Of a stretch of 35,226 bases of DNA, positions 349 through 34,824 are shown piece by piece; within the stretch, counting starts at the first letter, position 1; every line of letters starts with the position of its first letter. Source of the DNA: Prevotella sp. GTDB lineage: Bacteria > Bacteroidota > Bacteroidia > Bacteroidales > Bacteroidaceae. The notes below the pieces were generated by a model, which searched no databases, was not told the origin of the DNA, and saw only the letters and a program-made list of their open reading frames with translations. The stretch is taken from positions 1-35,226 of the forward strand of contig JAFYYV010000044.1 in assembly GCA_017557405.1 (NCBI GenBank). Direction: 5' to 3'. The position numbers and the translations under genes are program-made.

Positions 349-1110
349 ATGAAGAAAACATTACTCATTATCATGGCATTGGCAGGGCTGTTCCTGTCGG
401 CATCCGTGTCTGAGGTGATGGCACAGACATACTATTATTACGATATTTATACTGGTAAGAAAACTCCCATAACCCTAAACGAGAACAAGCTCGTTGTCAG
501 TATTCCCAGGGATTATGATGAGATAAGCAAAAGGGTTCGTGCAAATGTTCAGGCTCTGTTTTGGACACAAGACTATATTTTCGAATTCTTTTTTATTACT
601 CGGTCTGACTATGAGAAGCTGACCTCATTGGACTTTTGGGAAGAAGACGCCAAGTCTGTGATAGTAACTCCAAGTTATATTCAAGATGATGACAAGGGAG
701 ATTTCTTCCGGGAGATTTTCGCGCTTCCATACGTGATAATACATCTCAAAAAGGAAGGGGATCTGGACTTGCTGACTCCGTATTTAGAGAAGTATAGGCT
801 CAAAAATGATTGGCAAGGTCCTTGGTCTCCTTTAAGCTGTATTCTGTGTCTCACCCTGGATAGTGAAAAAGGCCCATTGGAAATCGCGAATGAAATGTTT
901 GAAAGTGGAGTTTTTTCGGCATCAGTTCCTGACTTTGCTTATCCCAGTTACGGGAGTGACCCGAACACTGTCCGAAGCATTACCACCACCCAACAGCCAT
1001 CATCCACCTACGATCTGCAAGGCCGCAAGTTGTCAAATTGTAAATGGTCAAATAGTCAAATTAGGAAGGGCATCTACGTGAAGGACGGACGGAAGTTCGT
1101 GGTGAAGTGA
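349..1110 (+). CDS. secreted protein resembling a subtilase N-terminal propeptide, with a C-terminal sorting-like tail
   Basis: This is a 253-residue protein with a signal peptide (MKKTLLIIMALAGLFLSASV..., probably cut after VMAQ). The middle (about residues 120-200: 'LKKEGDLDLLTPYLEKYRL', 'LTLDSEKGPLEIANEMFESG', 'FSASVPDFAYP') resembles the propeptide-like N-terminal region of Bacteroidetes S8 subtilases, where a 'PLE.AN...ESG.F..A.P.F' motif precedes the catalytic domain. No Asp/His/Ser catalytic motifs follow. Instead the chain goes straight to a 'STYDLQGRKL...KGIYVKDGRKFVVK' tail, a common C-terminus of exported Prevotella/Bacteroides proteins. The signal, tail and missing catalytic domain are seen; the propeptide relation is from memory of the family; a role as free inhibitor or chaperone is inference. 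The lipoprotein at 1133 follows by 22 bases and is probably co-transcribed. Confidence 0.75.
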   Translation: MKKTLLIIMALAGLFLSASVSEVMAQTYYYYDIYTGKKTPITLNENKLVVSIPRDYDEISKRVRANVQALFWTQDYIFEFFFITRSDYEKLTSLDFWEEDAKSVIVTPSYIQDDDKGDFFREIFALPYVIIHLKKEGDLDLLTPYLEKYRLKNDWQGPWSPLSCILCLTLDSEKGPLEIANEMFESGVFSASVPDFAYPSYGSDPNTVRSITTTQQPSSTYDLQGRKLSNCKWSNSQIRKGIYVKDGRKFVVK

Positions 1111-1132: not shown

Positions 1133-1717
1133 ATGAAGACAAAACTCTTTTTCCTTTCCGCTCTGCTCCTCGCCATGCTGGGAGTCTTCGGGTGTGGTGG
1201 CGATGACGAATGGGAGGAGTATGCCCAAAACCTTGATAAAGAGTTTGAACAGATAGTGGTGGATGAAAGCGATACTTCGGAGGATGTGATAGGTCTGCAT
1301 TTGAATATTCTAAGCTTTTCGGAGAAAGTGTCAACCATTGACCCGGAAACAGCCCCCAAGGTGTTCACAGCGGGAGAGCCTATTACTTTTTCAATTATTG
1401 TTCGCTACCTACATGGGATGAAGAACCCATTCTGGTTCACGGATGAATTCAAGACGGACAGAGAATTTTTCTGCATCTACTCGGAGGAGGGAAAACTGGT
1501 GAAAAGACCAGACAGGAACAAGTTCAAGACCTTCATAGAGCAATCGAATCCCCCTTCATACAATATTTATTATAATTGGGTCGATGACGATTGGAACTCA
1601 CTCCTGCCCGCAGGCGACTATTACACGAAATTCAGCGTGAAATACAACGCGCGCCCAAAGGAAGAAAAGGAACATTGGCGATTGAAAAACTTCGAGGTAC
1701 ATTTCAAAATCAGATAA
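1133..1717 (+). CDS. lipoprotein with an Ig-like/BsuPI-like beta domain
   Basis: This 194-residue protein has a lipoprotein signal with lipobox VFGC (Cys21) followed by GGDDE, an acidic stretch typical of surface-exposed Bacteroidetes lipoproteins. The remaining part is beta-rich ('FTAGEPITFSIIVRYL', 'FFCIYSEEGKLVKR', 'LLPAGDYYTKFSVKY'). The order of 'G-x-I-x-F-x-I', 'F-x-IYS-x-x-G-K' and 'LPAGDY' is reminiscent of the BsuPI-type proteinase inhibitor fold, but the resemblance is weak and a generic Ig-like domain is equally possible. Its first 26 residues match those of the lipoprotein at 11931 at 22 positions, also at DNA level, showing a shared leader. It lies 22 bases after the propeptide-like gene, in the same transcription direction. 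Confidence 0.75.
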   Translation: MKTKLFFLSALLLAMLGVFGCGGDDEWEEYAQNLDKEFEQIVVDESDTSEDVIGLHLNILSFSEKVSTIDPETAPKVFTAGEPITFSIIVRYLHGMKNPFWFTDEFKTDREFFCIYSEEGKLVKRPDRNKFKTFIEQSNPPSYNIYYNWVDDDWNSLLPAGDYYTKFSVKYNARPKEEKEHWRLKNFEVHFKIR

Positions 1718-6252: not shown

Positions 6253-6488
6253 TCTGTATAACTATACATATAATCTCATTTTCTTTTGTTTCACTAGTAC
6301 GTTATTTCGCAGAAGTATAGCAAAAGATATGTTTCTTCATATTATTTATGCAACTTTCGTCCTTTTATGCATTAACAAAAAGGCCCGTCACCTTCACTCT
6401 CTGATTTTTTTGACAAAATAGAGACTCTCTCTTGTGCTGTTCCCCAAAGTTTATGTGCATGGATGAATACGGATTCCGAATATTTTTA
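6253..6488. other. intergenic stretch without recognisable gene
   Basis: This is the rest of the 436-base gap between the divergent DUF4143 ATPase and TPR-regulator genes. It is AT-rich at the left and holds a short run of frames without family resemblance. Nothing beyond the repeats and the flanking promoter boxes can be supported. Confidence 0.5.
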
Positions 6489-6496
6489 TATCTTTG
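6489..6496 (+). promoter_or_regulatory. -7 box of the TPR regulator gene
   Basis: TATCTTTG matches TAnnTTTG and lies 38 bases before the ATG at 6534. A longer open frame beginning at 6432 would run through this box, which argues for the downstream ATG that starts a lipoprotein signal. No convincing -33 element. Confidence 0.55.
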
Positions 6497-6533
6497 CAGA
6501 CGAGAACAACCGCAACATGAAAATCATTTGACA

Positions 6534-8428
6534 ATGAAGAAAATCATATTCTTGCTGCTGACCGTCGCCACGCTGCTTGTAGGATGCACCACCCAAACGG
6601 CCCATCACGAGACTATCGAACGGGCCAAGCAACTGATGAACGAGCATCCCGACTCAGCACTTGCCTTGCTCGACAGCCTCCAGCCTTATCAAGGCGCATT
6701 CAGCAAAAGCATGCGCATGGATTTCATGATGCAACGCCTCAACGCACAAAACAAATGCGACACCATCTTCCGCTCCGACTCCATTGCCAAGATTCTCGTG
6801 GATTATTACGCCCATCACGGTACAAGCAATCAGCGGATGCTGGCCAACTATCTCGCTGGACGCGTCTATTACGACATGGGGGAACTGCCCTATGCCTTGC
6901 AATTCTATCAGGATGCGGCTGAGGCAGCCGACACCACCCGTGCCGATTGCGACCTTTCACCCTCTATGCCGTCTATGGGCAAATGGCACAACTTTTCCAT
7001 GCACAATTCCTCCCCGATGACGAGATGAAAGCCTTACGGGCAGCTGAGCAATGCGCATGGAAAGACAATGACACACTCTCTGCCTTAACAGCATACGAAC
7101 TGAGCGTCAGGCCCTATTATCTGAAAAACGAAAAGGACAGCGTTCTCTTTATCTTGAATCATGTGCGCGACTTGTATCTTCGATATGGGTTTCGCGAGAA
7201 TGCCACCCGCGTTCTCTCTCCGATAATCAGCATTTTGATTGATCAGAACAAATATGCTGAAGTGCATGAGCTAATGCAGATTTATGAAAGCGAATCCGGC
7301 TTGTTCAAAGCTGATGGGAACATCATGTCTGGCCGGGAGATGTATTATTATGAGAAAGGTAGATACGCGTTGTTTGAGAACAAGACGGATTCCGCGGTTT
7401 TGTATTTCACTAAATTGCTGAATGCAAAACCGTTTGAGGCTGGCTATAAAGGATTATTGCAAGTCTATGAAAAAAGAAACAAGCCCGACTCCGTTGCAAA
7501 GTATGCTACTCTTTATGCGGCCGCGAACGACTCCTCATACCTTCATGTGAATCAAAATGCAATTCACCAGATTAGTGCCATGTATGATTACAGCCGTCAT
7601 CAGAAGATGGCTGAAAAGGAAAGAGCCAAAGCAGAAAAGGTCAAAAGGGGAAGAATGGCGCTATGGACGGCATTAATAGGATTGATAGTCATTGCTGTCT
7701 TGTTGTATATTTGGCAGAAGAGAAAATACAAAAGAAAGATATTGCATTTGTTGAATGCCTATGAAGCCAATCAAACAGCCCTTTCACATGCAAAGAACGA
7801 AATGCGCCTCATGGCTGTTGATTATGAAACCAACAAGAATGGTTATGAAGAGAAATGCACAAATCTGATGGCTCAAATCGAAAGAGGAAAAGACGAGAAA
7901 GGTGAATTGGAGAATCGTATAGATGATTTGGAAAGCGACCTCCAACAAGCCCGTTTTGAAGCTGATGAATTGAAAGACCAATTCGAGGCGGACATACTAA
8001 AGAAAAGCAAAGAGATAGAGGATTTGCTTAGGGAAACAGAGATGATGAATGAAAAACTAATGGCAATAGACGCTACGAAGATGGAAGAAGACTTCAAAAA
8101 AGACGAAGCATATTTAGTATTTCAAGACAAATGTTCATCCTTGCAAATCAATCATGCTCCGACAGAAATGGAGTGGCGGAGATTGTTGAATGCTTTTCGG
8201 AAGTCTTTTGTCCGTTACCATTCCTTTGTGTACATCAAACACCGTCTGCCAGAGAATCAGTACAGATTATGTGTATTGATAAGATTGGGATTCAGTAACA
8301 AGCAAATGGAGTTCTTGTTGAAGAAAGACGCTGACAAGCTATACAGATTGAAGCGGACAGCCAATTTGAAGATGTTCGGCAAGGATGAGGCGACTACACT
8401 CATTCAAAATCTCACACCTTATTATTAG
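6534..8428 (+). pseudogene. TPR lipoprotein/transmembrane regulator with C-terminal HTH, interrupted by a frameshift
   Basis: Two overlapping frames make one protein of about 630 residues. The first (6534-7028) has a lipoprotein signal (LLVGC, Cys18), then TPR-like helices ('AKQLMNEHPDSALALLDSL', 'NYLAGRVYYDMGELPYALQFYQDAAEAAD'). The second frame (readable from 6947) continues with 'FTLYAVYGQMAQLFHAQF', further TPRs, one membrane helix ('MALWTALIGLIVIAVLLYIW'), a long charged coiled coil, and a C-terminal 'LCVLIRLGFSNKQMEFLLKK.ADKLYRLKRTANLKMF' block like the LuxR-type HTH of Bacteroidetes TPR regulators. Homology passes from frame to frame near 6950-6956, where one missing base would explain the break. 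In the family the TPR part is outside and the HTH inside the cell. Either the gene is dead or there is a sequencing error. The downstream DUF3244-M4 genes are plausible targets. Confidence 0.75.
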
Positions 8429-8624: not shown

Positions 8625-8996
8625 ATGAAACGAAAAGTATTAACAGTCATGGCTGTAATCTCCATGTTTTTTGTATCGCCTACATCAATGACGGCACAAA
8701 CAGGTGATCCTGTGGTTTTGGACCCTACCATCATCGATCCTACCGATCCACTCAATCCTCCGCACAAGACACCTATTCAAATCCCATCAGTTGAACTTGA
8801 TGGTCACACTCTCTATTTCAATACTCTTTGCGATGGTTATGAACTTCGCATCGTAGATGGAAATGCAGGTGTTGTCTATTCTCTTATTATTCCTTTAGGA
8901 TGCACACAGGTTGTTCTGCCAAGCACTTTGGTGGGAGAATATGAACTGCAACTCATCACAGGAAATTTGATGTTCTATGGCACAATAGAACTTTAA
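8625..8996 (+). CDS. secreted DUF3244 family protein
   Basis: This 123-residue protein has a signal peptide (MKRKVLTVMAVISMFFVSPTSMTAQ). After a proline- and aspartate-rich linker with repeated 'DPT' (about residues 28-50), the C-terminal 70 residues ('IPSVELDGHTLYFNTLCDGYEL', 'LPSTLVGEYELQLI', 'MFYGTIEL') form the short beta-sandwich of DUF3244. Such proteins are small exported Bacteroidetes proteins of unknown role. It shares a promoter and lies 49 bases before the M4 protease, so co-expression is likely; whether it binds or protects the protease is unknown. Confidence 0.8.
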   Translation: MKRKVLTVMAVISMFFVSPTSMTAQTGDPVVLDPTIIDPTDPLNPPHKTPIQIPSVELDGHTLYFNTLCDGYELRIVDGNAGVVYSLIIPLGCTQVVLPSTLVGEYELQLITGNLMFYGTIEL

Positions 8997-9045: not shown

Positions 9046-11805
9046 ATGAAAACGAGATTGTTTTTTGTAGGAGTGTTCTTTTTAATATCTTTCTTAGCGG
9101 ATGCCCAACAACAGACAACAGATGGTTATAATATGCCTGTTTATACAAATGACAAACATATACCGTCTTATTTCTTCGTTCCTGATGATATCGGCGCATT
9201 GAAATTTAACGTAAAAGATAGTAATAAAAAATCGATAATTAAGAATCTTTTAAAACTGAATGAAGAGACAACTTTGATGTTGGCAGATACATTAACTGAC
9301 ATTGCAGGCGGCTTTCATGAGTCTTATAAACAGTATTATAAAGGTTTAGAAGTAGATGGCGCACGTTGTGTTGTCCATTACACAGGTAATGGTCAAGCCA
9401 AAATGATAAGTGGTAATCTTAAGACAATAGAAAACAAAGCCATAGAGCCAACTATAAGAAAAGAACAAGCCAAATCATTGGCATTACATTCCATATCTTT
9501 TAAAGAAAAAATTAAAAATAAGAAAACATTTGTGAATCAAGATAGTGTAGATATTGATAGTATCCTGACCTTTCGCCAAGAAAGTTTGGTTATATACGTT
9601 AAAGAAATGACACCTTATCTTGCATATAAGTATGTAATCAGTTCTATTGCTCCAGAATTGAACCAATGTGTTTATGTAGATGCGAATAGAGGAACTATAC
9701 TTGATAAAGAAACTACTATATGCAATGTGTCAGCAACAGTCTCAACACTGTATTCTGGTATACAAACTATTGAAACACAATACTATCAAAACTATTACAG
9801 ATTAAGAGATTATACACGAGGATATGGCATAGAGACATTTCAATATAACACCTTTTTTATGCCGAATGACTTTATTTCCACAAATAACACATGGACAAAT
9901 CTGTCAAACTTCGATAGGGATGCATTAGACGTGCATTGGGGAGTAGAAAAAACCTATGACTACTATCTAAATAAATTCGGAAGGAATAGTTATGACAATC
10001 AAGGTTCAAAAATAGTCTCGTATGTCAACAAGAATGATACTAATGCATATTGGAATATGTCAGAATCATATATGGTTTACGGTCAAATGTTAAATCATTT
10101 ACCCTATGTATCTCTTGATGTTACTGCCCATGAAATAACCCATGGCGTGACGCAGCATACATCGAATCTAAAATATGAGAAAGAGTCTGGTGCCATCAAC
10201 GAAGGTCTTAGTGATGTTTTTGGAGTTTGTGTTGAGAATGAATATAAATTAAATAGCGGTAACAATATTTGGAAAATAGGAGAAGACTTCAAAAATGGAG
10301 GTCTACGTGATTTGTCTAATCCTACTTGCAAATATTATCATGGAACAGGATGGGCTAATACAGATGTAACACCTTGTGCCTATAATGATATGGCTGGTGT
10401 ACACACAAATTCTGGGGTTTTCGGTTATTGGTTCTATCTGCTTGTCAATGGTGATAGCGGAACCAACGAAGGCGGTTATACTTATACAGTATCTCCCATC
10501 AGTATTGACACAGCCATTCAGATATGCTATTTGGCAAATGCAGTTTTTCTTTCCTCAGATTCAAAATATATTGATGCGAGATATTGCACACTATATGCAG
10601 CTCAAGCATTGGGATTAGATTCGAATGTTATAAACAATATTAACAATGCATGGGATGCCGTTGGAGTTTATATTAACTTCGCAGGTAATTATATGATTTA
10701 TAATAGTGCAATTTATATGGTTCCAAGTATTCCAGACACTTGTTCTGTAGCAAATTGGACACTCTCTGGCTATAATGCACAAAACTTCATAATAGAAGAA
10801 AATACTCCGACAGCAAACCAATGTAAGATAACTCGAAAGATCGGAGTGGACTTTAGTGGCTCCTACTATCTTACGTTGACGGCACAAGTCATGCATAATG
10901 GGACTGCCATCAAGACAATCAACAAGCAACTGATAGCTCCTTATATAGAGGGAAATGTTGTTCCATGTGGCTATAATGTTTATTCTGTGGTTCCCCATGT
11001 GGCGAACAGTACGATAGAATGGGAGGCAGAAGGAAGCAATATCACGTCACCCACAGATCCGTTGCCTTCACTTCCGCCCGAAGATCCATACGCTTATGTC
11101 ATAGCGAACACGGAAGGTCGGGACATTTACGGCACATTGACGGCCACGTTAAAAGTAGGCGGCAGTGTGATTGGCACATTGGAGAAGGTTCTTGACATGT
11201 CTGGGCTTTTCTCCGGAACATGGTGGCAGCAAGCTTCTGCTTTGGATACCACCAACGCCAGCCCAACAGTATTCCACCATCAGGATATGTTGGACATTGT
11301 TCCGAGCAGAACGGTATATCTCCAGTCGGATGATTTTATTGGGGCGAACATAACAAAAACTATCAGCAATATGATTGCTTTGGGATGGACAAACAGCAAT
11401 GGAATTATTTCTTTCACCCCTCTCTTACCAATAAACGGTGGCCTTGGGAGTATTACGATAGAAGGGACTTATCCCAATAGTTGCAGGCATTTCAGATTGC
11501 GTCTTCTTACGATGAGCCATCTTGACGACCCCATTCTCTTGTCTATCAATCCATCTGGTCAGTCATGTGATTTCTCCCTTATCTTGAAGCAAAGCGAGGT
11601 GCGTTCCACATCATCAAATTCAGATATACCAACAGAATGGCGATTAACGATTACCAAGAGTGAAACAGGCAGTAGGGTGTTTGATTCGGCCGTTTCAGGA
11701 ATGTCAAAGACCATTAATACCACAGAATGGAGACCGGGTGTGTATATTGCGGTAGCCCAAGTGGGAAAATTTACTTTGTCGGGTAAATTTGCAATAGAGC
11801 GATGA
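9046..11805 (+). CDS. secreted thermolysin-like M4 metalloprotease
   Basis: This 919-residue protein has, in order: a signal peptide (to about ADA, residue 20); an FTP/PepSY propeptide (about 45-225, with 'GGFHESYKQYYKGLEVDGARCVVHY'-like core at residue 88 onward, in pieces 'GGFHESYKQYYKGLEVDG' and 'YLAYKYVISS'); and an M4 catalytic domain with zinc ligands H362, H366 (motif HEITH), E386 (GAINEGLSD), catalytic E363 and the proton-donor histidine H453 in GVHTNSGV. Beyond about residue 560 lie beta-rich repeats and a C-terminal 'TEWRPGVYIAVAQVGKFTLSGKFAIER' domain typical of Bacteroidetes exported proteins. All catalytic residues are present, so it should be active and self-matured outside the cell. 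The 3' third is visibly more GC-rich than the 5' two thirds, suggesting a mosaic gene. It follows the DUF3244 gene in one likely operon. Confidence 0.92.
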   Translation: MKTRLFFVGVFFLISFLADAQQQTTDGYNMPVYTNDKHIPSYFFVPDDIGALKFNVKDSNKKSIIKNLLKLNEETTLMLADTLTDIAGGFHESYKQYYKGLEVDGARCVVHYTGNGQAKMISGNLKTIENKAIEPTIRKEQAKSLALHSISFKEKIKNKKTFVNQDSVDIDSILTFRQESLVIYVKEMTPYLAYKYVISSIAPELNQCVYVDANRGTILDKETTICNVSATVSTLYSGIQTIETQYYQNYYRLRDYTRGYGIETFQYNTFFMPNDFISTNNTWTNLSNFDRDALDVHWGVEKTYDYYLNKFGRNSYDNQGSKIVSYVNKNDTNAYWNMSESYMVYGQMLNHLPYVSLDVTAHEITHGVTQHTSNLKYEKESGAINEGLSDVFGVCVENEYKLNSGNNIWKIGEDFKNGGLRDLSNPTCKYYHGTGWANTDVTPCAYNDMAGVHTNSGVFGYWFYLLVNGDSGTNEGGYTYTVSPISIDTAIQICYLANAVFLSSDSKYIDARYCTLYAAQALGLDSNVINNINNAWDAVGVYINFAGNYMIYNSAIYMVPSIPDTCSVANWTLSGYNAQNFIIEENTPTANQCKITRKIGVDFSGSYYLTLTAQVMHNGTAIKTINKQLIAPYIEGNVVPCGYNVYSVVPHVANSTIEWEAEGSNITSPTDPLPSLPPEDPYAYVIANTEGRDIYGTLTATLKVGGSVIGTLEKVLDMSGLFSGTWWQQASALDTTNASPTVFHHQDMLDIVPSRTVYLQSDDFIGANITKTISNMIALGWTNSNGIISFTPLLPINGGLGSITIEGTYPNSCRHFRLRLLTMSHLDDPILLSINPSGQSCDFSLILKQSEVRSTSSNSDIPTEWRLTITKSETGSRVFDSAVSGMSKTINTTEWRPGVYIAVAQVGKFTLSGKFAIER

Positions 11806-11814
11806 AACTGATAA

Positions 11815-11859
11815 AAAACGGAGAAATCTGATGCAAGATTTGCAACGTTTCTTCGTTTT
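11815..11859 (+). terminator. hairpin terminator after the M4 gene
   Basis: AAAACGGAGAAA (11815-11826) pairs with TTTCTTCGTTTT (11848-11859) over 12 pairs with one G-T wobble; a small inner GCAA/TTGC stem also forms. It starts 9 bases after the stop codon at 11805. The T-rich 3' arm would act as the tail. Read-through to the lipoprotein at 11931 is possible. Confidence 0.55.
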
Positions 11860-11930
11860 ATTAATAAATACGGAAGTTTCAGCAATAAGTAAACAATTGA
11901 CAACAACCCAAAATTAAAACATTAAAACGT

Positions 11931-12686
11931 ATGAATACGAAAATCTTTTTCCTTTCCGCCCTGCTCCTTACAATGCTGGGAGTATGCGGATGCGGTGGCG
12001 ATGACGAAGAACAGGACATCGGACTTGACGAGAAAGCTCTGCTGAGCCAGACCGAACCTTTATATAAGTCAAGTCGTAGTAATATTTCCAGTTTGCCACA
12101 GACGGAAAAGAAGGTGGGCGACTGGAGATTCGTAATGTATGGAGATTATATCACCGAGGTCTCATTCGGCTCCTTTGGCAACGAGTCTGACTATGCCAAG
12201 GCTCCTGCCTCTGCCGAGGCATTCTTTGAGAAATACCTGCCTTTGACAAAGGACAACTATCTCAAGTTGGAAGAAGAATCCACTTCTGGTGGCAGATATC
12301 ACAAAACCTACCTGCAATATTACAAAGGTGTCATGGTGAAGTCGCTTTATACATGTTATTATCAACCTGACGATAAGACGCCCCAGTATATGCACGGAAT
12401 CTTCATCCCTATCAGCAACCTCGACGTCAAACCGCATGTGAGTGAGAAATTAGCTAGACGCATTGCGATGTCCTTTACGTCGAAGGGGCAGCAGGAAACA
12501 CCTGGGGAGGGGTGGAACTTGAGTGCCGAACTTCGAATCACCAACTATATCATTGATGGAGAGCCACATGTCCATCTGGTCTATGATTGTACACTATGGA
12601 GCAACGCCCCATGGTCCAGCGAAGAAAATGTCGCCATCGACGCCCATACAGGCCGCGTACTCGCTTACTCGATGGCCATCGCATAA
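11931..12686 (+). CDS. lipoprotein resembling a free-standing M4 (FTP/PepSY) propeptide
   Basis: This 251-residue protein has lipobox VCGC (Cys21) followed by GGDDEE. The body aligns by eye with the propeptide of the M4 protease just upstream: 'GGRYHKTYLQYYKGVMVKS' against 'GGFHESYKQYYKGLEVDG', then 'MHGIFIPISNLDVKPHVSEKLARRIAMS' against 'ISGNLKTIENKAIEPTIRKEQAKSLALHS' (compared in shorter pieces), and a closing 'HLVYDCTLWS...VAIDAHTGRVLAYS' like 'LAYKYVIS...VYVDANRGTILDKE'. There is no HExxH and no room for a catalytic domain. Thermolysin propeptides inhibit and fold their protease, so a membrane-anchored inhibitor or chaperone for the neighbouring M4 enzyme is a reasonable inference. The leader sequence is shared with the lipoprotein at 1133. 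The gene ends with tandem TAA codons, and an in-frame sorting-like tail fragment follows. Confidence 0.8.
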   Translation: MNTKIFFLSALLLTMLGVCGCGGDDEEQDIGLDEKALLSQTEPLYKSSRSNISSLPQTEKKVGDWRFVMYGDYITEVSFGSFGNESDYAKAPASAEAFFEKYLPLTKDNYLKLEEESTSGGRYHKTYLQYYKGVMVKSLYTCYYQPDDKTPQYMHGIFIPISNLDVKPHVSEKLARRIAMSFTSKGQQETPGEGWNLSAELRITNYIIDGEPHVHLVYDCTLWSNAPWSSEENVAIDAHTGRVLAYSMAIA

Positions 12687-12971: not shown

Positions 12972-14516
12972 ATGGGGGTATTTGATAAATTAATTAATAA
13001 GACAAATAATAATGATAAATTATCTTATCATGCAACAACAAAAGGGTTCTGTATTGGCATTCCTGAAGCTGAAGCCGAAGCAACAACTGCATCTATTAAA
13101 TTAGAGACCCTCTTTATTGATTATTTAGATGTTCTTGAACAACTAAACAATGAAAAGTTTATTGTCCTTGGCCGTAAAGGAACTGGTAAGTCTGCAATTG
13201 GTGAACATATTCTCTCTTTAGCGAAAAATGAGGCTAATATGTTTTGTGACTTCATTAAGAAAGAAGATGTGGATATTGAAAAAATAGTGCAGATAGGAAA
13301 AGAAGAAGGAGTCTATATTGAAAGAGGCCTGTTGTATAAGTGGATTATTCTTACTAAATTTGTAGCACTCTTTGCAGAGAATCAGAGCTTAGCATGCATA
13401 AAAGGCATGAATTATCTTTCTGATTTTATAAAAAAGAGTCGTGGATTTATAAATATAAAGAATTACGAAATAAAGGAAATAATCCACCAATACGGTTTGT
13501 CTGTAAACATTGAATATTTCAAGAGATATCTTAGTACTTCTGGAAATACCTATAAACAGTATAAGTATGAAAAAGCGGAATTCTACAAATTAATTCCAGA
13601 CTTAGAGAAAGTTGTAACAGATATTTTGAAAACAGATAAAGATAACCTTTATATCTTAATGTTTGATGATTTGGATATTGGTCTTAACTTGAATAATAAA
13701 GAAAGCATTGATACGTTAACGGAATTAATAAGAACTATTAAATATTATAATAATGATATATTTGCAAGGAATTCTATAGAATCCAAAATCATAGTATTTT
13801 TGCGTACTGATATTCAAAAGCATCTTATCTATTCAGCTGACATGCCTAAGATTTTTTCTAGCTATGCGACAGAACTAAGATGGTATGAAAACTCCTTTAG
13901 GTATAACGAGACCAAACTCCTTCTTCGGCAATTTATAAATAGAAGGATTTCTGTTAATTTTCAGAGAAAGGGTTTAGTGATTAACGATAATAATGACCCT
14001 TGGACCTCTTTTATTGACGAAAAGAGTTTTTATGGTGAGAAAACAGGTTTTAAACATATTATAGACCATACGTTTTACCGTCCTCGTGATTTGATACTTT
14101 TCTTTAAAGAAATAGGTAGCCTAGACCTTAATTTACCCATTAGTTCCAATGATGTTAATAATATCTTACTTGATAGATATGCTCGCGAAATGATAACAGA
14201 TATAAAAGGAGAGCTCTCAGTTAATTATAATGCAAATGAAATTGAGTGTATTTTTGATGCATTAAGGAATGGTTATGGTACTTATAGAAAGCCATTTACA
14301 CATAACACATTAGTATCCGAGTTACAAAATAATGGTCTGAAAAATACTGCAAAAATAATTTCAGACTTATTTGACTATTCTCTCATTGGGAATTATGATG
14401 AAAATGGTAATGTGACTTTTAAATACAGAGAGACTCCTGGTCAAATAGTTGAACTTGATACAAATGGCTCGTTTATTTTGCACTATGTGTTACAAACTTA
14501 TTTTAAAAAGAATTAA
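12972..14516 (+). CDS. P-loop ATPase of the Sll1717-like type (candidate defence ATPase)
   Basis: This 514-residue soluble protein has Walker A 'VLGRKGTGKSAI' (about residues 65-76), a Walker B-like 'LYILMFDDLDIGLNL' (about 227-241), then 'IESKIIVFLRTDIQKHL', 'ELRWYENSFRYNETKLLLRQFINRRI' and 'HTFYRPRDLILFFKEIG' (about 365). These features, in this order, fit the P-loop ATPases named after Sll1717, a STAND/KAP-like branch often found in variable DNA. The C-terminal 120 residues look like a winged-helix-type segment, but this is uncertain. Composition is extremely AT-rich compared with neighbours, and the gene begins at the edge of a broken lipoprotein, both signs of transfer. It is followed at 14705 by a gene of the same composition. 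Enzyme activity beyond ATP binding is not predictable. Confidence 0.75.
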   Translation: MGVFDKLINKTNNNDKLSYHATTKGFCIGIPEAEAEATTASIKLETLFIDYLDVLEQLNNEKFIVLGRKGTGKSAIGEHILSLAKNEANMFCDFIKKEDVDIEKIVQIGKEEGVYIERGLLYKWIILTKFVALFAENQSLACIKGMNYLSDFIKKSRGFINIKNYEIKEIIHQYGLSVNIEYFKRYLSTSGNTYKQYKYEKAEFYKLIPDLEKVVTDILKTDKDNLYILMFDDLDIGLNLNNKESIDTLTELIRTIKYYNNDIFARNSIESKIIVFLRTDIQKHLIYSADMPKIFSSYATELRWYENSFRYNETKLLLRQFINRRISVNFQRKGLVINDNNDPWTSFIDEKSFYGEKTGFKHIIDHTFYRPRDLILFFKEIGSLDLNLPISSNDVNNILLDRYAREMITDIKGELSVNYNANEIECIFDALRNGYGTYRKPFTHNTLVSELQNNGLKNTAKIISDLFDYSLIGNYDENGNVTFKYRETPGQIVELDTNGSFILHYVLQTYFKKN

Positions 14517-16823: not shown

Positions 16824-18269
16824 TTAAAACTGGTTGAACTTCTTCATGGCCTCTGCCTTGATGTCGTCAGCCACGTCGATGTACGGTTTCATTGACTTGT
16901 AATCACTGTGTCCCGTCCACTTCATGACAATTTGGGGAGATATTCCCATGCCGAGAGCATTGCAGATGAACGTCCTTCTTCCCGTATGGGTGCCTATCAA
17001 CTCATATTTTGGCTTTACAATGTCTATTCTCTCATTGCCTTTATAGAAAGTCTGTCTGACAGGTTCGTTGAAACCTGCCATCTTGAAAAGCTCATGAAGG
17101 TACTGGTTCATCTTCTGGTTGCAGACCACAGGCAGGGCCTTCGAATCAGGAAAGTCAAAAGGCTCGTATTTCTCCAAAATCTTTCTGCTGACATCATTCA
17201 ACTCTATGCGCAGGCTGTCACATGTCTTCTTTGTGGTAACCTCTATATAGTCTTTCTTGATATCATATTTTTTCAAGTTAGACACATCGGAATGGCGAAG
17301 TCCAGTGTAACAGCAAAACAAGAAGACATCCCTGACGCGATGGAGATAGAGTTTCGTCTTGGGAATTTCATAGTTCTCCAGTTTCGTAATCTCTTTCTTC
17401 GTGAGGAAGATGATTTTTTTCTGTGTCTTCTTGAATTTTGGCCGGAATGTCTCAAACTGATTGTTTTTATGGAAACCTTTCTGAAAACTCCAGCGCAGGA
17501 ACCACCGCAGGAATTCCAAGTGCTTTTCTATGGTGGAGTTCTTCATGTTCTTGACATCACGTAAGTACTCCAGATATGAGAGCATGCCGTCATCGTCAAA
17601 ATAGTCGAAATCGAAGTCGAATGACTTCAACCCCTGTTTTCTTTTGTATGCCCTGAGACCTTTCAGATGGTTGCGCATGGCTTGGAATTTTTCATGCGTG
17701 GATTCTGTCCAGTTGTTCTGTCTGCCACATATGTTTTCAAACTCAATGGCAACCTCCCAAAATTGTAAAGGTTTGTTAATTTTCGGCTTTTCGGTTTTCC
17801 CTTCATTTTTGTTAAAAAGGGTTTTGAGCGACACTTGTCCGCTTTTTGAGCGTGATTTGTCCGCAGGCTCAGGAGCGTTGATGATGACCTTTTTAGTGCT
17901 GCTTCTGGATTTTGTGAAAGACGTCTTTCCCGTCTTCACCCGCTCCAAAGTATCTTTGAACTGCTCCGGGGTAGGGACGAGGGACGCACTCTCGTATATT
18001 TCAACAACGTCATTCACATACTTAGCCAGTGTCATAATTCGGGCGTTAATCTCTTCAGCCGTCATGCCATCGCGATTAGGTCCGACGGCAACCTGTGCAG
18101 TTTCATTCCATCTCAGCGAGTCTATATGGCAGCCAGTTGACAATTCCAGTTTAAGGGATTTGTAGCTGATACGCATGGTAATTAACGCATTCGGAACGTT
18201 TGTCAAGGTTGTTGAGCTTGTCAGCTTTCTACTTTTCAATCTGAACTTTACTTTAAGATCTTTTCTCAT
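16824..18269 (-). CDS. tyrosine recombinase/integrase, full length
   Basis: From the ATG at 18269 the protein is 481 residues (MRKDLKVKFRLKSRKL...). It has an arm-binding N-terminal domain, a SAM-like core-binding domain (about 165-265), and a catalytic domain with R325 (TGLRHS), K347 (EVTTKK), H428 and R431 (HTGRR), H454 (TGHS) and nucleophile Y463 (KPYIDV). All six catalytic positions are present. A frame extends upstream to 18488, but that segment overlaps a hairpin repeat, has non-protein-like composition and no start signal, so the ATG at 18269 is preferred. This type integrates mobile elements in Bacteroidales. Its position between accessory DNA on the left and core-like genes on the right suggests an element edge at about 18.3-19.04 kb. 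Confidence 0.9.
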   Translation of the reverse strand: MRKDLKVKFRLKSRKLTSSTTLTNVPNALITMRISYKSLKLELSTGCHIDSLRWNETAQVAVGPNRDGMTAEEINARIMTLAKYVNDVVEIYESASLVPTPEQFKDTLERVKTGKTSFTKSRSSTKKVIINAPEPADKSRSKSGQVSLKTLFNKNEGKTEKPKINKPLQFWEVAIEFENICGRQNNWTESTHEKFQAMRNHLKGLRAYKRKQGLKSFDFDFDYFDDDGMLSYLEYLRDVKNMKNSTIEKHLEFLRWFLRWSFQKGFHKNNQFETFRPKFKKTQKKIIFLTKKEITKLENYEIPKTKLYLHRVRDVFLFCCYTGLRHSDVSNLKKYDIKKDYIEVTTKKTCDSLRIELNDVSRKILEKYEPFDFPDSKALPVVCNQKMNQYLHELFKMAGFNEPVRQTFYKGNERIDIVKPKYELIGTHTGRRTFICNALGMGISPQIVMKWTGHSDYKSMKPYIDVADDIKAEAMKKFNQF

Positions 18270-18379
18270 ACTTCTATGTAATATTTGATTATTATGATTA
18301 TCAGTTTTTTGGATAATAATTGTGAGTTTGCATGTTTGGGCATTGTTTACATATTTTAAGGAGAAGACGGCAAATGTAA

Positions 18380-18411
18380 GGCCAAAAACAGGTGATCTTT
18401 CCTGTTTTAGC
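18380..18411. repeat. hairpin repeat, copy 1
   Basis: GGCCAAAAACAGG (18380-18392), a short loop, then CCTGTTTTAGC (18401-18411) form a stem of 8-10 pairs. It is closely related to copy 2 at 18953-18980, about 570 bases away and in the same orientation. It falls in the doubtful upstream extension of the recombinase frame. Confidence 0.65.
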
Positions 18412-18952
18412 TCTGGATTAGTCTCGGGATCACTCGGGAAGCACCTGATTTGTGGTGCCCAATTAAAAGAATTTAGCACTTCCGGCATTCTTATATTGAG
18501 CGAATAGATTCCCCAAAGCTATTCTTCTCCTTAATTTCTCAATTAGTTGGAGGCCCTCGGATGTTCCCACATTCCTGTTCCCAACAGAGTTTTTCAATAA
18601 ATGCTCCCGAAATGTAAACAAACGTTCTTAGAACAAGTTCGTTTATAATCGTTAACATGGTTATTTCATTCATATTCAATAATTTATATTTCGATTAACT
18701 TTATTATCATATTGTTAATGGGATTCCCCATGTTCCCCAAATGGGTTCTCCACAACCGAGTTTCATCACACTTTACTTTGGCACCCTGGGCGAAACATTC
18801 AAAAATGTTCCCACGATTCTTCCCTAAAATGTTAACGAAACTGGTGCAAATTTACATAGATGTTTCACATCTTCCAAATGTTAATAAATGTGCAATGTAA
18901 AGAAATAGTCAGTTTTTGGTTAATTAATTTAACAATAAAACGGACAAAAACA

Positions 18953-29536: not shown

Positions 29537-32500
29537 CTATGGTTGAACCTCCAATCTGTATTCAATGTCGACCTTTCCTTCTTGTCTGAAATCATCGGTC
29601 ACCACCTCTGTAGGGCTCACCCACGTTACTGGACAATCTGATTCCGCTGTTATTTTCGCGTACCAACCAGGATTCTTCACCTCGGTATAGATGGTGCCTT
29701 CGAGATGATAGGTTCCCTGTCCTTTGAATTGGTAGACATACTTGTCTTTGACACGATTGACGGTGAATGTTCCCTCCACTTGGTGTTGGATGTCACCCTC
29801 AAGCAATTCGTTCCACAGCAAGGTTATCTTGCCATCATCCCAATTATCCATGTCTGCATAGAAGTGTATCACATCTTCTATGGTCGCCAGAACATTGTGA
29901 TAAGAAGTGTTCAGTTTGAAGGTGCCTCTACCAGTATTAGTCTCTGTGTCGAAGGTGCCAGTCATGTTCAGTCCAGCGATGTTGCTTTTAATGTCGCCAG
30001 TGAGCGAGGGTACTACACCATCGTTGGCCTTGAATGCATCCACGATGTCTTGATACCAATCTTCAAAAAAGGCGCCAGTCTTTTGCCCCAATTCGGAAAT
30101 GAGACCATCAATAAGCTCAGGTTCTTGCCCCCAGCATGATACTATGCCCCAACCATACATTTTGTATAGAGGGAGCTCAACAGAATCGGGATCCATCTTG
30201 ATGTTGTAGTTCTTTCCTTGTCCCTCGATAGCCTGACCACCCGATTCAAGATCGATTGTGACCACTTGCAGACCTGTGCCGCCAGGAACCTCGAAGTCGT
30301 AGGTGGCACGCTCAGTTCCTTCATCGTCTATCAGAGTCAGTTGGCTCTTTATTTTGTGTCTGATGAGTGAATAGCGGGTGAAGGCACCCATTTTGGCAGT
30401 TCCATCCTTACCGATGGTCTTCTGCCAGTTTTGTGGGTCTTTGATGCCGTCGGGTATTTCACTGTAGCGGATGGTCCACCCGGCGTACTGTGATGTCTCA
30501 CCTTCCTCGCACGACGAATCGATGATTTTCAGTCCCAGATACGAGTTCATCCATTCCGAGTATTTCTTCACCCTCTGACTGTATTCCCTGGCAGATTTGG
30601 CGGCAATTTTGTTCTTGATGGCCTCGAACACGCTGACCAATTCTCCATTCATGAGTTCGGCGAAGTATTCTTCTGATATCTGCTTCTGAATAGACTCATA
30701 TGGGTACTGGTAGGAGGTCATCGAACGCGAGTCGGCCTCTGCCATGCACATGGTGAACACATCGGCAGGCGCTTCCCAGTAGGCATCGCAATAGCGGCGC
30801 ACCGACTGTTCGATGTATGCATCCAGTCTTTCCTTCGTCATGCCCTGCTTGTTGAACGCAGGATAGAAGTAGTCGAACCACTCTTTTGTGTTGCGGTATT
30901 TCGAACCATACTGCGGTCCCACCAATGCTCGTCCTTGTTCGCTGTAGTAGAGGCTGTATGCCTTGCGAAGCAGGTCCTTGATGGATTTCTGCACCTTTGT
31001 GCCCAGTTTTTCCAACGCTACACCAATGAATGCGCTTAATCCCATCGATGCAGACATGACGCTGGAGCCAATGACGGATGAAACTTGTGCGCTCGTGATG
31101 CTGAGGATGGCTTTCAATGAGTTGGAGGCTACACCGATGTCGTCGCCTTGAATGGAAGCATTGGCGCAATCAAGGATAGTGGCATAAGTACCCAGATAGC
31201 CCACTATGTTGGTCAGTTCTCCGATGCCTTCTGTGGTAAAGCCCAGCGCACTGAGCAGGTTGTGTCCGCCATCGATGCCGATGCTTTGCCAGAAGTTGAA
31301 GTCGTCGCGCCAAGCCTGCACGGCACCCTCCTCTGGGTCTTCGTTCGAGACGATTTTATACAACACCTCGAGCATCCCTGTCAAGTCATACGCGCCAGGA
31401 GTCATGTCATAGTCCATGTCAATCTTGGTGCGCCAAGTGTCGTCGTTAATCGTGGAGAACACGGAGAAATACGACAGATGGTCGGTTATGATGACTACGG
31501 CATCCTGTTCCTCGTCGTAGCTTGCCAGCACGGGCTCCCATTCGCCTGTCTCCTCATTGAAGTAGGCGGCATGAACCTTCTCATTCTCGCCGATGCTGTA
31601 GGGGACCACGATCTTTGCCGTGCCACTCAGTTCGTGTACGTTGTTGGAGAGGCTGATGTCGATGCCTACGCCGCGTGTGACGCCCTCGATAACATCGGGT
31701 GTCAGCACCGCGTTGCGGATGCACAGTTGTACATCGCCACTAATGGTGGTTGGGTCAAAGGTCACCGAGCATTTTTGCGCTTCGGCAGTAAGTGTCGAGT
31801 CGTTGAGTTCGAACACCTCAGCATTCTCATAAACGAAGCCGTTCATCCAAGTGATGCTATCCACCAGCGCCACATTTGAGGTGAGGTCGTCGCGGCCATT
31901 CAACTTCACCACCACTTCGTTTTGCTCTCCATCCTGTGCTATGCGTATGTCGCTCACTTGGCTCAGGGGAACGCTGGTGCTCTTGTCTCCACGGTGCATC
32001 ACCATATAATACTCGCGGCCTTGGTTGGGCAAAGGTTCGTATTCCTGGTCATCCTTGACGTTGAACCGCCGCCACCCGGGGGCATTGCGGTATAGCTCGG
32101 CAGTGCCTTTGGGAACGTAGAGCTTTGGCCGACTCCATTGGTCTTCCTCAAATATCTTGTCGTTGAAGGTGGCATCGGTGATGTCGGGCGGTACAACACA
32201 CAGGCAGGTCAGACTGCTGAGCCGCTCACAATTGGTGAATGCGCCCTCCATCTCCACCACGGTATTGGGAATCGTTACTTGGAATGACTCGTGCTGTAAA
32301 CTATGGATGCTGCCGGGCTCCAACCTCACGACATTGTCTGTAAAAGGCTCGGCATATGATTCATTGCCTAACCACAAGGAATTCCACGTTGTACCATACA
32401 TCGACGTGTAGTAATGCTGCGGAAGTGTTATAACCAGGCTTGAACCATCCTTGCTGAACAGCATCTTACTGTACTTCCGAGAAGGGTGAATGCTGAAATA

Positions 32501-34339
32501 TGGACTGCCATCGACGACAAAGCCTTGAATATTGGTGTTTTCAAAAGCGGAAGGCGATATTCTCTTTAGGGCGGGGAATATATGGAAAACTTTTACAGTC
32601 CAGTGATAGGTTTCTCCGTCATATACATAGGGAATATTTTCATCCGGGAAGGATGCAGCATACAATGCTTCTGGCTCCAGTTCCTTCAATGAAGTGAATC
32701 GGGGCGATTCTTGGAATGCATCCGACGCGAAAGCCCGACGACCAATCTTGGTGATGCACCCTAGCCATGCGCCGTCGCCTTCGCTCGTTCCAGTTCCTCC
32801 TGCTTCAAACGCCTCTTCGTCAACTTCAAACGCCGGACTGCGGCTGATGATGTTTGTAAGGGAGCACATCATGAACGCCTTCTTGCCAATTCGTTTGATG
32901 GAGGCTCCGATGGTAAGGTGTTTGATCTTTGCCAACTGGAATGCTCCATCGGGCACTTCCTCCATCTTGTCGCTGATGACGAGCGTGTCGATGGTAGAAT
33001 AAATAAAGCAATACTGGTCAATCATCCTCACGTTGTCGCCGAGGTTCATTTTGCTGAAATGGCCTCTGCTGTAGAAAGCGTTCTTGCGAATGCGTGTAAC
33101 AGGATATTCCTTTCCCTCGTACGTGATGGTGTTAGGAATGTTAATCACGGTGCCATCCTGACCACTCAACAGATATGAAATGACATGCGCCTCACCACTT
33201 TGTTGCAATCCATATCTTATATTGTCAATCTCGATGATTTTAGTGTCATAGGTGGGGATGAAACCAGTGATTGCTACTCCTTTGGAATTAAATCGGTATA
33301 AGGTTGATGGCTTATAGTAACCATCATAAGAGCCTCCCCATCCGTAGTTGAAATGCAGGAAGTTGTTGGTGGTGTAGCCATCGCACACCAAAGCATGATT
33401 GATGTTATCGCCCGAACCACCAGAGTAGGGCACAGGATGCAACTCGTCAAGTTCTTTTTTGATAATGGAAATCAGTTGGTCAGCATCTTGAGGAGTATGA
33501 ATATCACCTTGTTCGTAACTGAAATTATATGCTATTTCGTAAGTGCTAAAGTAGGATGAACTTCCTTCGGGTTGGTAATATGTTCCCATAGACTTGCCGA
33601 TGTCCCTCATCAGATAGGCCACGGCTTGTGCTTGGTCAGCGTTGTATCCCGAAGCGTAGTTGTCGAGCATATTGTCCCAGTCGTACACATGCCCCGAGAA
33701 GTCCTCGCCAGTGAATAGTGCAGTCATATGGTCTGCCAACCGTCCTTGTGATTCCTTTGGCCATTTGTAGTAGTTCATGATTTGTGCAAAGGCCGTGGGA
33801 ACGCAGCCGGAGGGACAGCCTGCAGGGCACAGGTTGTTGTAGGGCGCCCATTGGTTCCACGTTGTGGTGAGCAGAGGGGCCACCACCACCGTACCGATGT
33901 TCTTCGCTTTACGTGGCGCTTTGGAGGCTAGAGAAGGATTGCTTCGAAGCTGGTCAATCTCCTCCGTGTAGTTGTCGAGTAGTTCTTTCAGTTGGATGGG
34001 AGCATCGTCATAGTTGAACGAGCCATGATCGCAATAGCCCAGAATATCGTCTTGGGTTCCAGTTTCTCCCGACACGATGACGAATCCCTGATTGTTGCCT
34101 AGGTTGATGACATACACATTATCTTTCTCCACGTCCACCTTCGAAGGTATGGCGTGCGACAGTTGCGGAACCATTGCTTTCCTTGGTGCTCGGTAGCCCT
34201 TCACTTTGGAGAGGCCAGATTGGCTGGCTGTGGCAAACTGCTGTGCTGCCTGCAACGCCTGTTCCACGCTGATATCATCGGCCAGTAGGGCATTGGCCGA
34301 GAAGAGGAGAAGGGTCAAGAGGGGCAGTATCTTCTTCAT
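29537..34339 (-). CDS. secreted C10 (streptopain-like) cysteine protease with BspA-like LRRs and a large unknown C-terminal region
   Basis: This 1600-residue protein has, in order: a signal peptide (to about ALLA, residue 20); a Spi/streptopain propeptide (21-145); a C10 catalytic domain (148-365) with Cys179 (SGCVPTAFAQIMNYYKWP), His315 (INHALVCDGY) and Trp334 (NYGWGG); LRR_5/BspA-like repeats (about 385-770, 'IPNTITYEG', 'LGDNVRMI'); a beta module (about 775-965) with 'YFNEETGEWEPVLASYDEEQ'; a mostly helical, Gly/Ser/Ala-rich hydrophobic stretch (about 1025-1112); and a beta-rich C-terminus. The first four parts are known Prevotella protease themes; the rest I do not recognise. It is probably processed on export. 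Many such proteases act on host proteins and are held by the Spi prodomain. It shares an operon with the small secreted protein upstream (ATGA overlap). Confidence 0.88.
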   Translation of the reverse strand: MKKILPLLTLLLFSANALLADDISVEQALQAAQQFATASQSGLSKVKGYRAPRKAMVPQLSHAIPSKVDVEKDNVYVINLGNNQGFVIVSGETGTQDDILGYCDHGSFNYDDAPIQLKELLDNYTEEIDQLRSNPSLASKAPRKAKNIGTVVVAPLLTTTWNQWAPYNNLCPAGCPSGCVPTAFAQIMNYYKWPKESQGRLADHMTALFTGEDFSGHVYDWDNMLDNYASGYNADQAQAVAYLMRDIGKSMGTYYQPEGSSSYFSTYEIAYNFSYEQGDIHTPQDADQLISIIKKELDELHPVPYSGGSGDNINHALVCDGYTTNNFLHFNYGWGGSYDGYYKPSTLYRFNSKGVAITGFIPTYDTKIIEIDNIRYGLQQSGEAHVISYLLSGQDGTVINIPNTITYEGKEYPVTRIRKNAFYSRGHFSKMNLGDNVRMIDQYCFIYSTIDTLVISDKMEEVPDGAFQLAKIKHLTIGASIKRIGKKAFMMCSLTNIISRSPAFEVDEEAFEAGGTGTSEGDGAWLGCITKIGRRAFASDAFQESPRFTSLKELEPEALYAASFPDENIPYVYDGETYHWTVKVFHIFPALKRISPSAFENTNIQGFVVDGSPYFSIHPSRKYSKMLFSKDGSSLVITLPQHYYTSMYGTTWNSLWLGNESYAEPFTDNVVRLEPGSIHSLQHESFQVTIPNTVVEMEGAFTNCERLSSLTCLCVVPPDITDATFNDKIFEEDQWSRPKLYVPKGTAELYRNAPGWRRFNVKDDQEYEPLPNQGREYYMVMHRGDKSTSVPLSQVSDIRIAQDGEQNEVVVKLNGRDDLTSNVALVDSITWMNGFVYENAEVFELNDSTLTAEAQKCSVTFDPTTISGDVQLCIRNAVLTPDVIEGVTRGVGIDISLSNNVHELSGTAKIVVPYSIGENEKVHAAYFNEETGEWEPVLASYDEEQDAVVIITDHLSYFSVFSTINDDTWRTKIDMDYDMTPGAYDLTGMLEVLYKIVSNEDPEEGAVQAWRDDFNFWQSIGIDGGHNLLSALGFTTEGIGELTNIVGYLGTYATILDCANASIQGDDIGVASNSLKAILSITSAQVSSVIGSSVMSASMGLSAFIGVALEKLGTKVQKSIKDLLRKAYSLYYSEQGRALVGPQYGSKYRNTKEWFDYFYPAFNKQGMTKERLDAYIEQSVRRYCDAYWEAPADVFTMCMAEADSRSMTSYQYPYESIQKQISEEYFAELMNGELVSVFEAIKNKIAAKSAREYSQRVKKYSEWMNSYLGLKIIDSSCEEGETSQYAGWTIRYSEIPDGIKDPQNWQKTIGKDGTAKMGAFTRYSLIRHKIKSQLTLIDDEGTERATYDFEVPGGTGLQVVTIDLESGGQAIEGQGKNYNIKMDPDSVELPLYKMYGWGIVSCWGQEPELIDGLISELGQKTGAFFEDWYQDIVDAFKANDGVVPSLTGDIKSNIAGLNMTGTFDTETNTGRGTFKLNTSYHNVLATIEDVIHFYADMDNWDDGKITLLWNELLEGDIQHQVEGTFTVNRVKDKYVYQFKGQGTYHLEGTIYTEVKNPGWYAKITAESDCPVTWVSPTEVVTDDFRQEGKVDIEYRLEVQP

Positions 34340-34824
34340 GGCTTCTGGAATTTAAATGAAAAACGGTTGGTCTTCACGATATATATATCCCTGCCTAGCA
34401 TCTCCAAGGAGATCTCGGCACGGCCGTTGGAGTCGAGGAGCCACTGTCCCACTTTTGTTCCCTTGATGCTGTAGAGCATCACAGGAGCATCGGGCTGACC
34501 TCCGCTGATGGTAAGCGTGCCGTTGTGGAAATAGAATTGCTCCTCTGGCATTTGTATGTTCTCAACGTGACTGACCGACTCTGTCCACTCCACGTCGAAC
34601 ACCAATTTCTTCAGCATATAGACGGGATATTGCACGGTGGTCTTCGTGGTGGTCAGTACGAGGTTGCTGCCGCTGTAGGTCACGACGGGCTTCTCAGTAA
34701 AGGCAAACGTGGCCACCTTTCCGTCCTTCTGGTGGATGGCGACGACATTCTGTGCGTGTGCCGTCAAGCCGATTCCTGATAGTATTAGGATGGCCACGAT
34801 GGTAAACATTCTTTTTATATCCAT
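34336..34824 (-). CDS. small secreted protein co-transcribed with the C10 protease
   Basis: This 162-residue protein has a signal peptide (MDIKRMFTIVAILILSGIGLTAHAQ). The first half ('VVAIHQKDGKVATFAFTEKPVVTYSG') resembles the short beta module also seen in the protease near residue 775. The second half ('MLYSIKGTKVGQWLLDSNGRAEISL' in pieces; 'IYIVKTNRFSFKFQKP') has the layout of C-terminal sorting/adhesion tails of Bacteroidetes. It starts first in the operon, and its stop overlaps the protease start by four bases. Role unknown: partner, carrier, or inhibitor. Confidence 0.75.
   Translation of the reverse strand: MDIKRMFTIVAILILSGIGLTAHAQNVVAIHQKDGKVATFAFTEKPVVTYSGSNLVLTTTKTTVQYPVYMLKKLVFDVEWTESVSHVENIQMPEEQFYFHNGTLTISGGQPDAPVMLYSIKGTKVGQWLLDSNGRAEISLEMLGRDIYIVKTNRFSFKFQKP

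Follow-up and report, generated by a model that had tools for sequence, protein, structure and literature searches.

A lipoprotein with a free-standing M4 propeptide in Prevotella is a candidate surface-anchored protease inhibitor

The contig JAFYYV010000044.1 of a Prevotella sp. genome (assembly GCA_017557405.1; 3.56 Mb, 99.9% complete), whose 35,226 nucleotides are referred to as the window, encodes a lipoprotein at positions 11931-12686, starting 126 bp downstream of the gene for an M4 metalloprotease (9046-11805). Sequence comparison confirms that the mature part of this lipoprotein is a propeptide of the M4 type, comprising FTP and PepSY, with no catalytic domain. We consider it rather probable that the protein inhibits proteases and arose from an M4 propeptide, and the best reading by analogy is a surface-anchored inhibitor that resembles the potempins in function. 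The features concerned are:

9046..11805, + strand: M4 metalloprotease with signal peptide, FTP/PepSY propeptide, catalytic domains and long C-terminal module (919 amino acids; Pfam)
10756..11868, + strand: C-terminal module of the M4 protease and 63 bp beyond the stop codon (blastn match to the final part of another gene of this genome, which encodes a C13-type protease)
11924..12010, + strand: leader of the lipoprotein plus the acidic N-terminus of its mature form (CGGDDEE), DNA common to unrelated genes of the same genome
11931..12686, + strand: lipoprotein with FTP/PepSY propeptide only (251 amino acids; open reading frame check, Pfam, BLASTP, phmmer, profile searches, hhalign)
12120..12665, + strand: FTP plus PepSY propeptide-like region of the lipoprotein (hhalign to M4 propeptides; phmmer to 3nqy, residues 108-245)

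The open reading frames (ORFs) 9046-11805 and 11931-12686 are both intact. The second begins with a lipoprotein-type leader as judged by eye, and Pfam detects no M4 catalytic domain in it; here and below, lipoprotein calls rest on a pattern of our own or on inspection by eye, not on a trained predictor. The original prediction had aligned this protein by eye with the FTP/PepSY propeptide of the neighbouring protease, and the alignment is borne out. BLASTP of the two window proteins yields E 7e-7 over 81 columns (an E-value for that single comparison), and the motifs QYYKG and HLVYD...IDAHTG both lie inside the aligned region. A single-sequence phmmer search of the PDB returns the MCP-02 propeptide (3nqy) as the top match (E 0.019, residues 108-245 of the lipoprotein), while a profile built from 7 family lipoproteins matches 3nqy with E 8e-7 and prothermolysin (5a3y) with E 6e-6. 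This is further supported by hhalign, where a profile of 16 lipoproteins matches a profile of 6 M4 propeptides from this genus with probability 99.8 and E 8e-29 (178 columns aligned) and a profile of 11 M4 propeptides from another of its subgroups with probability 97.6 and E 4.6e-12; an unrelated subtilase propeptide used as control reaches a probability of 0.1. Both the hhalign alignment and the 3nqy profile match span FTP as well as PepSY. Past the part aligned with 3nqy, the window lipoprotein continues for 6 residues and the MCP-02 propeptide chain for 7; we take this chain to end at the maturation site. The window lipoprotein has no Pfam match above cut-off, the FTP model included (top match DUF4901, E 0.07), so its resemblance to M4 propeptides sits below the reach of that model; three free-standing relatives (G219, G134, G365) do clear the FTP cut-off. 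Homology to the C10 propeptide (Inhibitor_I69) was not found in the lipoprotein by Pfam.

At least 21 of the 398 genomes searched in the genus contain a free-standing relative, as determined with the seven-row profile at E below 1e-18, with M4-containing frames left out and one frame of 117 amino acids and one with an internal stop counted in; as only 6 candidates were scored per genome, this number is a lower bound. An initial contig scan with the window lipoprotein alone led nowhere. The fetched loci hold 26 free-standing genes, to which the 398-genome sample contributes 24 and L163, found in a separate contig search, the other two. Twenty further rows were not counted, as they contained M4 or were weak or short; they include a 114-amino-acid FTP frame at a contig end (L078), and the 117-amino-acid copy of G032 lies outside the 26. 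At the level of the order, matches occur in 22 of 129 genomes, a count that includes the genome of the window. Apart from the window lipoprotein itself, three matches (G518, G507, G072) cover the leader side only, and the others are frames of 572 amino acids or more, not screened one by one for M4, plus two shorter frames in G444, of which one (281 amino acids) is an apparent truncated M4 protease by eye and the other (465 amino acids) was not read. Outside the genus, this 129-genome search, whose long frames were not individually screened for M4, gave no clear free-standing member.

Both ends of the lipoproteins are conserved in character. In 25 of the 26 members the C-terminus follows the PepSY end motif by 7-18 residues (10 in the window protein), the exception being L110 with a tail of 120 residues, and the family C-terminus thereby appears to lie near the point where an M4 propeptide would be cleaved off. 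At the other end, at least two Asp or Glu residues are found within nine residues after the anchor cysteine in 22 of 26 members, the remaining four being unparsed (L118, L123) or having the wrong cysteine taken (L109, L119). This acidic stretch, CGGDDEE from the +1 cysteine of the window lipoprotein, resembles the export signal of Bacteroidetes surface lipoproteins, for which the consensus SDDDD has been hypothesised in Bacteroides fragilis (PMC5080379; this and the other articles are cited from those parts of their text that were available).

The neighbourhood of these genes was then compared between loci, with counts that rest on automatic ORF picking and on flanks that are clipped by contig ends at several loci. 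A serpin is encoded within 8 kb of 8 of the 26 family genes and within 1.5 kb of six. All four of these eight neighbours that were scanned with Pfam (L012, L110, L111, L116) are serpins, and the serpin neighbours carry lipoprotein leaders as judged by eye. Of the 21 carrier genomes 20 have a serpin, while the figure for all 398 genomes is 213 (P 3e-5 without correction for kinship). Neighbouring proteases were searched for among the M4, C13, S1 and S8 types only, and for most family members none was detected alongside; a trypsin-like enzyme is near one of the 26 genes, at a distance of 73 bp (L114). The company of the family thus consists more of inhibitors than of M4 enzymes. Family members often stand among groups of small, differing lipoproteins. 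An extracytoplasmic function (ECF) sigma factor gene lies within 8 kb of 10 of the 26 genes. At five loci (L012, L110, L111, L113, L116) an ECF sigma gene and a probable anti-sigma gene, identified by eye, adjoin FTP and serpin lipoproteins. The sigma/anti-sigma neighbours suggest a stress-controlled inhibitor locus.

Propeptides of a second protease class occur in a similar form, and one of them is encoded in the window:

349..1110, + strand: subtilase (S8) propeptide that stands alone, with a C-terminal tail of the Prevotella type (48-52% identity to fused domains in lipoproteins of relatives)

The fused domains are the N-terminal domains of the L122 and L124 lipoproteins, whose C-terminal domain is the FTP/PepSY unit. 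These S8+M4 propeptide fusions map to L122:3836-5056 and L124:1-1218, and a third is found at L123:8039-8863, where the frame is cut by the contig end and the leader is out of view. In L150-L153 the same S8-type N-terminal domain precedes a Peptidase_S8 catalytic domain. It was detected in 6 of 120 genomes searched. An S8 propeptide can thus stand by itself, as at 349-1110 and in L154, or share a lipoprotein with an M4 propeptide, as in the fusions. Searches of the PDB with this S8-type domain led nowhere.

We then asked how the lipoprotein is related to its neighbour, using a tree of 38 rows, 25 of them lipoproteins (L123 was omitted as partial). The 25 lipoproteins fall on one side of a branch, although the support of 55/88 is not strong. 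The window lipoprotein clusters with L012 and L110 (97/94), both immediately beside serpins, while the propeptide of the window M4 protease clusters with L071 (98/90). This grouping speaks against the lipoprotein being a copy of the propeptide next to it, and a recent duplication of that propeptide was rejected. The M4/lipoprotein pairing in the window is probably secondary, as judged from the tree. Five other M4 genes of the same subgroup were inspected by eye; four have different partner lipoproteins (L070, L071, L076, L077) and one has none adjacent (L073).

The M4 protease carries FTP (80-125), Peptidase_M4 (232-370) and Peptidase_M4_C (373-541), all above Pfam cut-offs, keeps its own propeptide at about 9106-9714, and has the HEITH and downstream Glu motif. 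Its C-terminal module matches a protease that is C13 by Pfam, with 90.3% DNA identity over 1114 bp (blastn) and 88% protein identity over 369 amino acids. A tail for the type IX secretion system (T9SS) is matched weakly (TIGR04183, E 0.088, below cut-off), and the genome encodes a PorU-type T9SS sortase. On contig C39 of the same genome (locus L018) there is a similar cassette, in which a C13-type protease is grouped with a regulator, with a small secreted protein and with a lipoprotein other than that of the window. In the stretches compared, the DNA of the two cassettes is alike in two segments, one covering the C-terminal module of the protease and the other the leader of the lipoprotein. 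The leader DNA (11924-12010) is 89.7% identical over 87 bp to that of the C39 lipoprotein, 90% and 86% identical over 78-80 bp to those of two other lipoproteins of this genome, and 84% identical over 43-49 bp to two further genes, which are non-lipoproteins by eye; up- and downstream of it little resemblance is seen by eye. One of the lipoproteins with this leader is in the window:

1133..1717, + strand: lipoprotein of an unfamiliar family with the same leader as the 11931 lipoprotein (73% identity over residues 1-30; 86% DNA identity over 78 bp)

Its mature part looks unrelated to the 11931 lipoprotein, and a PDB search with it gave nothing useful. The cassettes thus appear to swap protease and lipoprotein cores while the ends are retained.

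The KLIKK proteases of Tannerella forsythia are of the M10, M43 and serine types, not M4. They have near-identical C-terminal domains, and each gene is preceded by an unrelated small lipoprotein (PMC4404884). These lipoproteins are the potempins; PMC7296668 states, with reference to forthcoming data, that they inhibit the protease encoded alongside. The likeness to our locus lies in a small lipoprotein that adjoins a secreted protease in a T9SS organism, and also in the diversity of the lipoproteins, potempins being described as having no significant similarity among themselves (PMC4404884, PMC7296668). As in the KLIKK system, proteases of different families, here M4 and C13, share a C-terminal module, with a lipoprotein leader shared in addition. 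In contrast, the inhibitor core here is an M4 propeptide and its gene follows the protease, whereas potempin genes directly precede the KLIKK proteases, and most Prevotella family members are not beside a detected protease. No homology to a potempin core was found: only the PotA leader aligns (8b2m, residues 1-30, E 0.22), with no other potempin among the 13 matches listed.

Other known systems offer partial parallels. Spi of Streptococcus pyogenes is a free-standing propeptide analogue beside its C10 protease, and the Bfi proteins of B. fragilis are predicted to be exported or lipid-anchored (PMC2873492); their partners, however, are C10 cysteine proteases, and Bfi is staphostatin-like rather than propeptide-like. 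Free-standing PepSY proteins (group 2 of Yeats et al.; SspA, YpeB) are likewise secreted or lipid-anchored with at least one PepSY domain and no catalytic domain, and a regulatory role was proposed for them by Yeats et al. 2004, as cited in PMC4282423. They differ from the Prevotella family, in which FTP is combined with PepSY in the order of a propeptide and proteases or serpins adjoin some of the genes. The MCP-02 propeptide (3nqy/3nqz) shows detectable homology across both domains but is part of the precursor of its own enzyme, while the Prevotella lipoprotein is a separate, lipid-anchored gene product. Bacteroidales serpins such as miropin (named in PMC4404884) are protease inhibitors and neighbours of 8 of the 26 family genes, with a fold and mechanism unrelated to the propeptide lipoprotein. 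An inhibitor lipoprotein of the M4-propeptide type was not found in the literature searched, among the matches listed and with most subscription journals outside the coverage, and searches for literature on Prevotella serpin lipoproteins led nowhere.

Evidence counted for an inhibitor comprises the homology over the whole propeptide, the C-terminal boundary, the serpin neighbours and the S8 fusions, as well as the trypsin-like protease of L114, the KLIKK-like modularity and PorU. M4 propeptides inhibit their own enzymes, as cited in PMC4282423. Since some relatives adjoin known protease inhibitors, the lipoprotein probably acts as a shield against proteases. In such a mechanism the acidic residues after the lipid-anchored cysteine would send the lipoprotein to the cell surface, where it would bind thermolysin-like proteases as a propeptide binds the mature enzyme; its free C-terminus would occupy the active-site cleft like a cleavage product and block it, thereby protecting surface proteins. 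In this genome the likely target would be the M4 protease encoded 126 bp upstream, with protease and inhibitor cores both exchangeable in the cassette, but we name this enzyme as the specific target only tentatively. For most relatives, where no M4 enzyme was found, the target may be proteases of neighbouring organisms or another protease family.

Several observations weigh against an inhibitor. No serpin is encoded within 8 kb of 18 of the 26 genes (some with short flanks), and the window is the only locus with an M4 gene within 8 kb. An M4_C match is present in 2 of 21 carrier genomes, one of them a frame of 56 amino acids, compared with 31 of 398 overall (1.6 expected, P 0.50), which is chance level. 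As the lipoprotein and the propeptide of the adjacent M4 enzyme are only 24% identical, binding of the lipoprotein to that enzyme cannot be assumed. Free-standing PepSY proteins have been proposed to act on non-proteases (PMC4282423). Furthermore, a lipoprotein family with an NSGCK motif and conserved cysteines (L018:8860, L013:2884, L067:5985, L120:3827) stands beside a protease or FTP lipoproteins, and by eye a similar domain heads a leucine-rich-repeat protein (L191:6001-8604), so that not every lipoprotein neighbour need be an inhibitor. With that domain and no PDB match below E 0.1, the NSGCK family was rejected as a proven inhibitor.

The original prediction had expected the M4 and lipoprotein genes to co-occur in relatives; with one of 26 loci and 2 of 21 carriers, a conserved M4/lipoprotein pair is rejected. 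This lack of co-occurrence does not refute the broader reading of a propeptide-like inhibitor. That part of the prediction is sustained by the free-standing M4-type propeptide, by the serpins near 8 of 26 genes and by the existence of protease/inhibitor gene pairs in Bacteroidales (PMC7296668, PMC2873492, PMC4404884).

A possible but unlikely version of the inhibitor reading is that of an orphan immunity protein belonging to a set of surface inhibitors that are directed against the proteases of competitors and not those of the cell itself. Consistent with this, an M4_C match is missing from 19 of 21 carriers but present in 31 of the 398 genomes searched, family members occur in groups of different lipoproteins, and unrelated genes of this genome share one leader; yet a potential own target adjoins the lipoprotein in the window, and nothing shows M4 enzymes of competitors attacking Prevotella. 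It is improbable that the protein is instead a PepSY-type lipoprotein that binds a non-protease, such as a cell-wall enzyme, a sensor or a ligand, with its propeptide ancestry merely historical. YpeB/SleB and the PepSY proteins of two-component systems (PMC4282423) would be precedents, and 10 of the 26 genes have an ECF sigma gene no more than 8 kb away, but the serpins near 8 of 26 genes, the fusion to a second protease propeptide and the conserved propeptide-like C-terminus argue for a protease as partner. According to the title of a reference in PMC4282423, M4 propeptides help their enzymes to fold, and a membrane-anchored helper could fold the neighbouring M4 or other secreted proteases in trans; this is very unlikely, as 19 of 21 carrier genomes have no M4_C match, and the chaperone for the neighbouring enzyme that had been suggested originally is not favoured because that protease retains its own propeptide. 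Finally, a functionless remnant of a broken M4 gene, as the match of the domain to an M4 propeptide might imply, is hardly credible for an open frame with a lipoprotein leader whose nearest kin are lipoproteins beside serpins (97/94), with 25 lipoprotein rows on one side of a branch (55/88, not strong), and which differs from an order-level match that does look like a truncated M4 (L172) and by eye continues into the start of the catalytic domain.

If the lipoprotein is an inhibitor, the M4 propeptide would join the sources of natural protein inhibitors of thermolysin-like enzymes, and the old suggestion that free PepSY proteins regulate peptidases would gain a testable gene family. The potempin/KLIKK principle would apply not just to a single oral species but also to Prevotella, with interchangeable cores of protease and inhibitor. 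Provided that they are active, the S8+M4 fusions would represent naturally occurring two-headed inhibitors of two protease classes. More speculatively, and with considerable doubt, Prevotella may repeatedly detach protease propeptides for surface display as inhibitors, with M4 alone, S8 alone and a double-headed S8+M4 form, which together with the serpins would constitute exchangeable arrays against competitor, host and own proteases, similar to orphan immunity arrays against toxins.

Upstream of the M4 gene, the cassette contains two further genes:

6432..8428, + strand: TPR/HTH-like regulator gene (by eye), an ORF reading as two overlapping frames
8625..8996, + strand: small secreted protein, DUF3244-like, below cut-off (Pfam E 0.19)

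By eye, regulators of this kind are found beside other cassettes (L070, L073, L077, L013, L018), and small proteins resembling 8625-8996 lie upstream of M4 in L070, L073 and L077. A promoter/terminator scan gave signals not above shuffles, and a plasmid DNA search led nowhere. Near the cassette, a Sll1717-family P-loop ATPase (12972-14516) and a tyrosine recombinase (16824-18488, - strand) are encoded, which may point to mobility. At the other end of the window, a protein of 1600 amino acids (29537-34339, - strand) combines a C10 peptidase with a Spi-type (I69) propeptide and BspA-like leucine-rich repeats, and its start is overlapped by the gene for a 162-amino-acid exported protein of an unfamiliar family (34336-34824).

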